From assembly GCF_037031285.1 (NCBI RefSeq), contig NZ_JAYEZO010000001.1, positions 1,798,001 through 1,862,000 of the forward strand: 64,000 bases of DNA. Reading direction: 5' to 3'. Each line of letters opens with the position of its first letter. Within the stretch, counting starts at the first letter, position 1. Of this stretch, positions 28,987 through 31,384 are shown piece after piece. Position numbers and translations under genes: made by a program. This DNA is from Halobellus sp. LT62 (GTDB lineage: Archaea > Halobacteriota > Halobacteria > Halobacteriales > Haloferacaceae). The notes beneath the pieces are model-generated. The model saw only the letters and a list, made by a program, of their open reading frames with translations. It did not search any database and was not told the DNA's origin.

Positions 28987-30321
28987 TCACTCCTCGACGA
29001 GGACCTCAGCGTGGTCTTCGACTCGGCGGCTGACGTCGAGGCGGTAGTGCTTCAGAACGTCGCGTCCGAGAAGCAGCGGATGGGTCATATGCCGCCGGTC
29101 TTCGATGTTCGCCGCGACGGTGTACTGCTCGCCGCCGATACCGATGACGAGGTCGATGACCGGTCGCGTCTTGGCCCGTTTCGAGCTCCCCGACCGCACG
29201 CGAGTCGTCGTGTGAATCGGTCCCGCGCCGATCGCCGCGGCGAGTCGGAGGTCGATGCTCGTACTGGCCGCACCAGTATCCGATTTGGCGATCACGGTCT
29301 TCGTCCCGCTGCTCCCGCTGACGACGACGCGCTCGGTGAATCCGATCGTCATTACGCCTTCGGAGGTGTCGGGAGCGGAGACGGGCTTACACGCGGGGAC
29401 CGAATCGTCCAGCGTCGAGGCGAGCTGTGCGATGCGGTCGTCGTCGACGGAGCCGCCGGCGTAGTCGATCGCCTGCTTTGCGATGTACGGTGCCGGACTC
29501 CGTCCCGTCGCCTCATAGAAACCTTTGAACCCGGCCGTCGGATTGACCTCTAAGACGTACCATACGTCTCCGTCGCCGATCATATCGACGCCCGCGAAGT
29601 CGAGTCCCAACGCCGACGTCGCTCGTCGAGCGATGTCGAGGACGTCGTCGGAGACCGACTGACCGGCGTTCTCGACGCGACCGCCGCGGGCGACGTTCGT
29701 CCGCCAGTCGCTGTCGGCGGCGAACCGGAACATCGCGCCGATCACGTCCTCGTCGACGACGTACACCCGGAGGTCCCGCGGGACGTCTCGTTCGCGTCCG
29801 ATGAATTCCTGCAGGAAGGCCCGCCGCTTGCCGACGCTCGCGGTGAGCGGATCGCCCGCGCGGACTCGCCAGACGCCGCCGCCGTGCGTGCCAATCGCGG
29901 TCTTGTACACGGCCTCCTCGCCGAACTCCTCGCGTAGCTGGTTGAGCTGCGTGTTGGAGAGTGCCATTGCAGTCTTCGGAACCCGAATGCCCTCGTTGAG
30001 CAGGGCGACCGCCGCGGCGGTCTTGTGTGCCGCCCGCGCCGTCGCGTTTGGCGCGTTCAGCATCGGTCGGACCCCGGCGAGCGTGTGCGCCAACCCCAAC
30101 TCCTCGGCCGGTTGCTCGGTGTTCGAGAGGAGGAGCCGATTCACGATCACGTCGACGTCCGGGCTGAGTCGGGCGTTTCCGTCTCCGAATCGGAGGACGG
30201 TGTTCTCCTCGCGGAGCCACTCCGTCTCGTGGCCGAGCGCGTCGACGGCGTTCAAGATGGCCTTCGTCTCCTTGCTGTTGTGGAGGCTCAACACGCCGAC
30301 TCGAACGGACGTATCAGCCAT
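28987..30321 (-). CDS. RimK-type ATP-grasp ligase fused to a RimB-like aspartyl protease domain
   Basis: 444 residues in two parts. Residues about 1-300 are a RimK-like ATP-grasp ligase: PMLNAPNATARAAHKTAAA, then VYKTAIGTHGGGVWRV (nucleotide-binding Lys and loop), then GLDFAGVDMIGDGDVWYVLEVNP with metal-binding Glu and Asn. Residues about 330-444 are a retropepsin-like domain of the DUF785/RimB family with active-site AKSDTGAASTSID and LLGRDVLKHY. RimK enzymes add Glu or other amino acids to C-termini or small molecules; RimB-type proteins cut such tails. The fusion would put adding and removing activities on one chain. The target is unknown. Confidence 0.87.
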   Translation of the reverse strand: MADTSVRVGVLSLHNSKETKAILNAVDALGHETEWLREENTVLRFGDGNARLSPDVDVIVNRLLLSNTEQPAEELGLAHTLAGVRPMLNAPNATARAAHKTAAAVALLNEGIRVPKTAMALSNTQLNQLREEFGEEAVYKTAIGTHGGGVWRVRAGDPLTASVGKRRAFLQEFIGRERDVPRDLRVYVVDEDVIGAMFRFAADSDWRTNVARGGRVENAGQSVSDDVLDIARRATSALGLDFAGVDMIGDGDVWYVLEVNPTAGFKGFYEATGRSPAPYIAKQAIDYAGGSVDDDRIAQLASTLDDSVPACKPVSAPDTSEGVMTIGFTERVVVSGSSGTKTVIAKSDTGAASTSIDLRLAAAIGAGPIHTTTRVRSGSSKRAKTRPVIDLVIGIGGEQYTVAANIEDRRHMTHPLLLGRDVLKHYRLDVSRRVEDHAEVLVEE

Positions 30322-30415
30322 CGCCGCTCCCGGGGTAGCGACTGCTGCTGTTCGAGTGCATAGTTCGACGCAACGCGGTGAGCCGCATTGTTACAGACAG
30401 GCAAGCGGGGGGTGC

Positions 30416-30440
30416 GACGTTCTCAGGTGCGAAGAACGTC
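30416..30440. repeat. 8-bp inverted repeat between metF and the RimK-like gene
   Basis: GACGTTCT (30416-30423) and AGAACGTC (30433-30440) are perfect complements with a 9-nt spacer, and flanking GTGCG/CGCAC nearly extends the stem. It is about 95-120 bp upstream of the RimK-like start, so operator or metF 3' hairpin are both possible. Confidence 0.4.
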
Positions 30441-30482
30441 CGCACGCCCATCCTACTGGTAGGTTGGTCGTGCGGTCCTCGC

Positions 30483-30519
30483 GAAGAGAAGGGGGGAGGT
30501 CTGGAGGGGGGAAGAGAAG
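30483..30519. repeat. Perfect 37-bp polypurine mirror repeat (H-DNA candidate)
   Basis: The plus strand reads identically forwards and backwards about 30501: two 17-nt homopurine arms (30483-30499 and 30503-30519) flank TCT. Each arm contains GAAGAGAA and a G6 run. Polypurine mirror repeats are the classic sequence requirement for intramolecular triplex DNA. It starts 8 bp beyond the metF stop, so the metF transcript would end in a C/U-rich tract, which may also act as a terminator. Confidence 0.75.
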
Positions 30520-30526
30520 GGGAGAA

Positions 30527-31384
30527 CTACTCAGCCAGTTTCCGCTGTCGCCACTCTTCGAGGTCGGGCGTCTGATTGAACGTGTACAGATGTAAGCCCC
30601 GCAGTTTGTACGTGTCGTCGCCGACGTAGGGCGCGAGCCCCTCGACCAACTCGTCCGGCTTGTACCGGCCGCGGGAGCCGATGAACTGTTTGATGAACCC
30701 CACGATGCCGGTCGTCTTCCGCAGGAACCTCACCGAGTCGCCGACGCCGACCTTTCGAGAGATGCCCAACAGTTTCTCGTACTTCATCACGCCCGGAATG
30801 CCGACTTCGACGGGGAGGTCGATTCCGCGGTCGCGGATCTCCTCGATCCACTCGACAATCGTCTCGGGGTCATAGCACAGTTGCGTCACGATGTACGTCG
30901 CGTAGGGCGCTTTCTTCTCCATCGCCTCCGCCAGCTCCGCGTCGGAGATGAACGCGTGGCCCTCGGGGTAGCCGGTGATGCCGACCTCCTCGAACTCGTG
31001 ATCGAGGTCGTCTAAGGCGACGAGCAGATCGTGAGCGGACTCGAACTCGCCGACCGGCTCTTCTCTGTCGCCGCCGGGGACGAAAATATCCGTGATGCCC
31101 GCCTCCCGCAGTCGCCCGCAGATCTCGTCGAGTTCGTCGGGACCCTCGATGTACCGCGCGGCGATGTGCGGGATCACCTCGTAGCCGGCCTCCGCGGCCG
31201 CGACGCTCTTCTCGACGGTGCGGTCGATACCCAACTGCGGCGAGGTGGTAATCGCCACGCTCGCCCCCTCCGGGAGGTGCGATAGCTCCTCCTCGAAGCT
31301 GTCGAACGGCATCAACTCGAACCGCACCGAGGTCAAGAGCTCTCTGACGCCGTCTGACCCTCCACGCTGTGTGCCTACTGACAT
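30527..31384 (-). CDS. metF: Methylenetetrahydrofolate reductase
   Basis: 285-residue FAD enzyme interconverting 5,10-methylene-THF and 5-methyl-THF. FELMPFDSFEEELSHLP, then VAITTSPQLGIDRT, then VIPHIAARYIEGPDEL outline the barrel. IFVPGGDRE, then GITGYPEGHAF, then TQLCYDPETIVEWI are MTHFR hallmarks, and a PGVMKYEKLLGISRKVG loop follows. The C-terminus (LHLYTFNQT) is the typical end. It links the methyl and methylene levels of the folate C1 pool formed by the demethylating enzymes in this region. The start at 31384 is ATG; seven codons of acidic/Gly-rich sequence precede the core. Confidence 0.93.
   Translation of the reverse strand: MSVGTQRGGSDGVRELLTSVRFELMPFDSFEEELSHLPEGASVAITTSPQLGIDRTVEKSVAAAEAGYEVIPHIAARYIEGPDELDEICGRLREAGITDIFVPGGDREEPVGEFESAHDLLVALDDLDHEFEEVGITGYPEGHAFISDAELAEAMEKKAPYATYIVTQLCYDPETIVEWIEEIRDRGIDLPVEVGIPGVMKYEKLLGISRKVGVGDSVRFLRKTTGIVGFIKQFIGSRGRYKPDELVEGLAPYVGDDTYKLRGLHLYTFNQTPDLEEWRQRKLAE

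Follow-up and report, generated by a model that had tools for sequence, protein, structure and literature searches.

A polypyrimidine tract containing a perfect mirror repeat behind a metF-like gene in Halobellus as a candidate 3'-end signal

Introduction

What does a long and exact purine/pyrimidine mirror do just behind a haloarchaeal metF-like gene? The question is posed by a Halobellus genome (3.2 Mb in three contigs, with H. rufus and H. captivus as named close relatives), from which we analyzed a stretch of 64,000 nucleotides, here called the window. Reading of its letters had drawn attention to a 37-bp polypurine mirror repeat next to metF, which the original prediction assigned to the class of sequences that form intramolecular triplexes (H-DNA), suggesting that it may end the metF transcript or mark a recombination site. 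The terminators known from archaea are U-tracts, and a genome of 65% GC can maintain these only with difficulty; together with the nuclease FttA/aCPSF1, they have been described through the T stretches of Haloferax (PMC7237163), aCPSF1 and its U-tracts (PMC8716108), and the structure of FttA (PMC11616081). In Haloferax, transcription terminates at T stretches that include a conserved TC and are mostly hairpin-free, hairpins lying upstream of some of them, and the terminator tested in that genus is T5C (PMC7237163). The nuclease that acts in archaeal termination, FttA, has a preference for U-rich RNA (PMC11616081).

Results

The locus and its neighboring genes

The features of the locus are the following.

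28987..30321, minus strand: rimK-like gene downstream of metF, a RimK-type ATP-grasp ligase with a C-terminal retropepsin-like/Zn_protease-family domain
30314..30361, minus strand: conserved upstream ORF of 15 codons (MHSN...DG*), whose stop overlaps the rimK-like start codon
30386..30399, minus strand: candidate promoter element of the rimK-like gene, TGTCTGTAACAATG, conserved in the three species with the metF-to-rimK-like junction
30416..30440, minus strand: second inverted repeat, GACGTTCT...AGAACGTC
30440..30475, minus strand: imperfect inverted repeat CCGCACG...CGTGCGG, 7 nt past the tract in the metF direction
30483..30519, no strand assigned: perfect homopurine/homopyrimidine mirror of 37 bp, centered on TCT (AGA in the metF sense)
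30483..30526, minus strand: polypyrimidine tract of 44 nt, about 60% C with a single AGA interruption, proposed 3'-UTR/terminator element
30527..31384, minus strand: metF-like gene, methylenetetrahydrofolate reductase (Pfam MTHFR, E 1.6e-13)

The metF-like gene ends with a TAG on the minus strand (30527-30529) and may alternatively start at 31312. The rimK-like gene begins 161 nt past the tract on the same strand. We found no evidence for the suggested recombination site and rejected a mobile-element copy as well, because the 205 bp of intergenic DNA between the two genes are single-copy in the genome, with only short matches elsewhere, at chance level. Because TGTCTGTAACAAT and the 15-codon ORF overlapping the rimK start are kept in 3/3 species with the junction, a separate promoter seems to serve the rimK-like gene, about 85 nt past the tract; the element at 30386..30399 is the presumed promoter. 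TAACAAT or TAACTAT is also found upstream of the relocated rimK-like orthologue in two other Halobellus. The short ORF has the same length in the three species and is a possible case of translational coupling or of a leader peptide. Most Halobellus genomes encode several paralogues of the RimK-type/retropepsin-like fusion; relocation of this copy behind metF is restricted to three species, and one copy, in one genome, carries an in-frame TAG.

Past the tract, the two adjacent inverted repeats (30416-30475) form strong predicted hairpins in the species of the window (folding z -3.7), possibly an operator or a 3'-end hairpin, and H. captivus has the CCAGTAGG core in common. Folding gave no support for either of them in H. 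rufus or H. captivus (z +1.1 and -0.5, with few consistent pairs), and a conserved RNA hairpin past the tract was rejected on these grounds.

The mirror repeat and the tract that contains it

Read backwards, positions 30483-30519, GAAGAGAAGGGGGGAGG-TCT-GGAGGGGGGAAGAGAAG, give the same letters again, so that the repeat is as exact as had been claimed: two 17-nt homopurine arms about TCT without a mismatch or, counted otherwise, 18-nt arms about one base. With such arms (about 10 nt or more are needed) and a loop of 1 to 3 nt, it also belongs to the H-DNA sequence class, as the original prediction held. The position beside the metF stop was correct as well and can be refined, as the run of pure purines extends to 30526, abuts the stop codon, and makes a whole tract of 44 bp that is pyrimidine on the metF strand. 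There it reads TTCTCCCCTTCTCTTCCCCCCTCCAGACCTCCCCCCTTCTCTTC and starts at the first base of the 3'-UTR; since it begins right after the stop of a minus-strand gene, the metF transcript would carry a C-rich polypyrimidine (Y) 3'-UTR. A pyrimidine-rich run in the sense strand directly after the stop (30483-30526) is a trait of archaeal U-tract/FttA terminators, and the U run of 4-5 or more at the 3' end, another such trait, is missing, as no T run in the tract is longer than 2. The tract holds a 12-nt direct repeat, CCCCTTCTCTTC, which occurs twice, 28 nt apart, and is built of self-mirror blocks. It is not a tandem array (microsatellite), the best period match being 0.62 on its 24-nt uninterrupted part.

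When the tract was shuffled 20,000 times by mononucleotides and 20,000 times by dinucleotides, no 37-nt mirror arose (the best had 31); random C/T strings of 44 nt and equal composition gave one in 26 cases out of 200,000 (about 1.3 in 10,000). The runner-up of any composition is 20 bp long within 464 kb of this genome (the window and 400 kb more), which is the span that the claim of a longest mirror covers. Composition alone thus does not explain the symmetry. However, its 17 matched positions should not be taken as fully independent, because the 12-nt direct repeat is made of self-mirror blocks, the trace expected from duplication or slippage in a two-letter sequence. Two-letter units of up to 5 nt are all achiral, so that any tandem C/T array of them is a mirror by construction, and a striking mirror repeat of this kind need not signal selected H-DNA. 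We infer that the symmetry is probably a product of slippage or duplication of short C/T blocks and, as such, probably a by-product of repetitive sequence and not the working part.

The same site in relatives

Among 17 Halobellus genomes, the junction of metF with the rimK-like gene is present only in the window genome, H. rufus, and H. captivus; in most others, metF is followed by glyA without a long tract. The metF DNA of H. rufus is about 88% identical to that of the window. After its stop codon, H. rufus reads CTGTTCTCACCCCTCTCCAGACCTCTCCCCTTCTTCCCCTCTCC, with a Y-rich tract from about 8 nt past the stop that includes a 21-bp perfect mirror about the same AGA (one C-to-T change is found in both arms) and a second, overlapping mirror of 23 bp, while symmetry is missing from its outer arms. 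In H. captivus, (TCTCC)n starts 8 nt past the metF stop and runs into a 10-N assembly gap. What is kept across the three species is a pyrimidine-rich tract in the sense strand at the same place, whereas its sequence and the exact mirror are not, and conservation, which had been named as a check, holds for the former alone. Several (TCTCC)n tracts, at three loci, coincide with N gaps or contig ends, and such tracts are accordingly under-counted in draft genomes. Halobellus has a second set of four loci, where 48-130 nt of (TCTCC)n follow the stops of neighboring small-protein genes; in three genomes, these tracts lie on the same contig as metF, roughly 20-25 kb away.

Tracts across the Haloferacaceae

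Runs of (TCTCC)4 or longer occur in 17/170 genomes of the family, mostly 0-62 nt past the stops of unrelated genes and pyrimidine on the sense side. We then searched 167 Haloferacaceae genomes for all tracts of at least 28 pyrimidines, the genes around the tracts being called approximately, by codon usage, with our own caller. This yielded 161 distinct tracts, 82 of them coding and 79 intergenic (24 nt or longer). Coding tracts are almost always purine-sense (80/82), the opposite of the bias in the intergenic ones: among the 79, those within 100 nt of the nearest stop are 42 Y-sense versus 11 purine-sense (R-sense; p=2e-5). The bias remains with one count per gene family (33 versus 11, p=0.0013) and in co-directional pairs (22 versus 8, p=0.016). 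In 18/22 of the co-directional Y-sense pairs, the tract is closer to the upstream stop than to the next start, with median distances of 15.5 nt and 105 nt, respectively. Where orthologous genes carry a tract in different genomes, it is Y-sense in 10/10 recurrent families, which include orc1/cdc6-like, serS-like, coxA-like, and aldehyde dehydrogenase-like genes, names that are our reading of the protein starts. A combined count of 59 versus 27 gene families includes loci from a pattern search that were chosen for a stop-like triplet, and for this reason it was not used as the main test. Independently of gene calls, the pattern TRA+Y22 was found at 42 places versus about 29 for the reversed control, a weak difference.

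The stop-proximal Y-sense pattern is thus solid in Haloferacaceae, concerns few genes per genome, and is unproven beyond the family. Two other haloarchaeal families gave a trend only (25 versus 17 tracts, p=0.28; 22 versus 14 gene families, p=0.24). Within the genome of the window, Y runs of 10 or more were not enriched after stops (6 sense versus 6 antisense in 194 3' regions of a 400-kb sample), so that the polypyrimidine tract is not the common terminator here; a Y tract as a general rule for all its genes was rejected. T5 in the same 194 regions gave 11 versus 3 (p=0.057). Mirror symmetry was likewise rejected as a feature of the class beyond simple tandem repeats, since non-tandem tracts show no mirror excess over their shuffles (4/26 at p<0.05, median p of 0.56).

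Discussion

A proposed polypyrimidine 3'-end signal

The reading that we prefer, with a probability of about 0.5, is that the tract ends or trims the metF transcript as a putative sense-strand polypyrimidine 3'-end or terminator element; by analogy, a C-rich relative of the archaeal U-tract terminators would be its best explanation. The tract, situated in the metF 3'-UTR and upstream of a separate rimK-like promoter, would mark where the metF transcript ends. The RNA emerging from the polymerase behind the gene would be an unstructured and almost G-free pyrimidine stretch. RNA-DNA hybrids of the rY:dR type are weak, which would favor pausing and release, and the pyrimidine RNA may also, or instead, load FttA/aCPSF1, whose part here we infer. 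In a high-GC genome, the element would then work like the U-tracts, C having taken over many of the U positions. The earlier suggestion of a transcript end is, in this respect, consistent with the sense Y tracts that recur after stops across the family. Against it, the T runs of the tract do not exceed 2, whereas the terminator tested in Haloferax is T5C and FttA prefers U; several T-rich members of the class consist of repeated T5C, and the metF tract lies at the C-rich end of the range.

Like the terminators read by FttA, the tracts are pyrimidine-rich, lie directly downstream of genes, and require no hairpin, and the repeated T5C of some T-rich members recalls Haloferax. Unlike them, the metF tract is about 60% C and 44 nt long with U runs of at most 2, its class is often tandem-repetitive and sits at few genes per genome, and its terminator role is one that we propose. 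The bacterial PIT/BoxC/TMECO elements (PMC4666352) are also intergenic, purine/pyrimidine, and triplex-capable, but they are multi-copy, fold within one strand, and combine inverted and mirror arrangements, whereas the window tract is single-copy and shares its sequence with no other locus. Prokaryotic simple repeats such as (GGGAA)n in Halogeometricum (PMC8044849) resemble the H. captivus tract and many class members, which are pentanucleotide arrays of the same make-up; in contrast, the window tract is not tandem, and members of the class favor one strand and one position with respect to stops.

Alternative explanations

The main rival, which we regard as rather unlikely, is neutral simple sequence, in which C/T tracts slip into the unconstrained DNA after stops and the metF tract does nothing, the sense bias arising from mutation or from the removal of purine-sense, R-loop-prone transcribed tracts. 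Complete sequence turnover at the metF site between species agrees with it, as do the lack of overall Y enrichment in the 3' ends of this genome and the (CT)n arrays of one genus in another family, in which we saw no clear orientation bias. Neutrality does not explain, however, why the tracts lie near the upstream stop instead of the next start (18/22), nor why Y-sense tracts recur after orthologous genes across genera and families. The alternative that the hairpins at 30416-30475 are the true 3' end, with the tract as an unstructured spacer parting the ribosome from them, draws on their strength in the species of the window and on the hairpins that precede some Haloferax termination sites (PMC7237163); their want of support in both relatives speaks against it, and we give this reading the least credence.

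Two DNA structures could be the working part instead. In the H-DNA proposal, negative supercoiling would make the mirror fold, and the fold would halt RNA polymerase or take up supercoils. The perfect 18-nt arms, of pure purines or pyrimidines, and the minimal loop are those of H-DNA-forming repeats, a likeness read from the letters of the tract; the C-to-T change on both sides of the AGA in H. rufus, its second mirror, and the inherently mirror-like (TCTCC)n fit as well. Yet selected H-DNA should leave a mirror excess in non-tandem tracts, and with its absence there (4/26) H-DNA is not the best explanation; the symmetry is not maintained across the class, and the mirror is not kept as such in H. 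captivus and is broken in the outer arms of H. rufus. With so much C, the pyrimidine triplex would form only at low pH, and the potassium-rich haloarchaeal cytoplasm would disfavor the purine triplex and favor the quadruplex, so that high potassium and neutral pH speak against a triplex here, under ionic conditions that differ from those in which H-DNA is usually shown. PIT elements of Escherichia coli, a different triplex class, had no terminator activity in work cited in PMC4666352. H-DNA at the tract is possible but unproven, and as the working principle that had been proposed we consider it very improbable. A G-quadruplex competes with the triplex, since the purine strand, which is the metF template, scores as a quadruplex former (G4Hunter 1.75 in the window and 1.48 in H. 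rufus) and has a G2-type motif; a folded G-rich template would block RNA polymerase, and the potassium level would be favorable. We find this highly doubtful: the canonical motif (four runs of at least 3 G with 1-7-nt loops) is absent by regular expression, the score of H. captivus is no higher than 1.0, a T-rich make-up leaves many members of the class with only short G runs on the opposite strand, and potential quadruplex sequences are reported to be under-represented in many high-GC haloarchaea (PMC8044849).

A possible wider class of 3'-end signals

The preferred reading, a polypyrimidine 3'-end signal, allows a tentative generalization that we advance as a conjecture with the odds somewhat against it. 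In Haloarchaea, at least in Haloferacaceae, long C-rich sense polypyrimidine tracts after stops may form a distinct class of 3'-end signals that replace the U-tract in high-GC genomes, persist behind orthologous genes (metF, orc1/cdc6-like, serS-like, coxA-like, and others) as slippage renews their sequence, and are often mirror-symmetric, hence triplex-capable. If this is true, a strand-specific, C-containing Y tract would be a simple answer to the problem of ending transcripts in high-GC genomes, and it would offer a clear test of whether FttA or RNA polymerase recognizes pyrimidines in general or U in particular. Open-licence papers on polypyrimidine or pyrimidine-rich 3' ends in haloarchaea contained nothing on such tracts, nor did open-licence surveys of prokaryotic mirror repeats and triplex elements describe them; as the search was confined to this literature, it is weak evidence of novelty.

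Two further observations concern individual groups of tracts. The orc1/cdc6-like genes of four genomes have a polypyrimidine tract 0-2 nt past the stop, and these tracts could be tied to replication origins instead of transcription. In the genus with (CT)n arrays, a genome may have as many as 18 scattered (CT)14-24 arrays, with an identical unit at many intergenic sites, an unusual microsatellite load for an archaeon.
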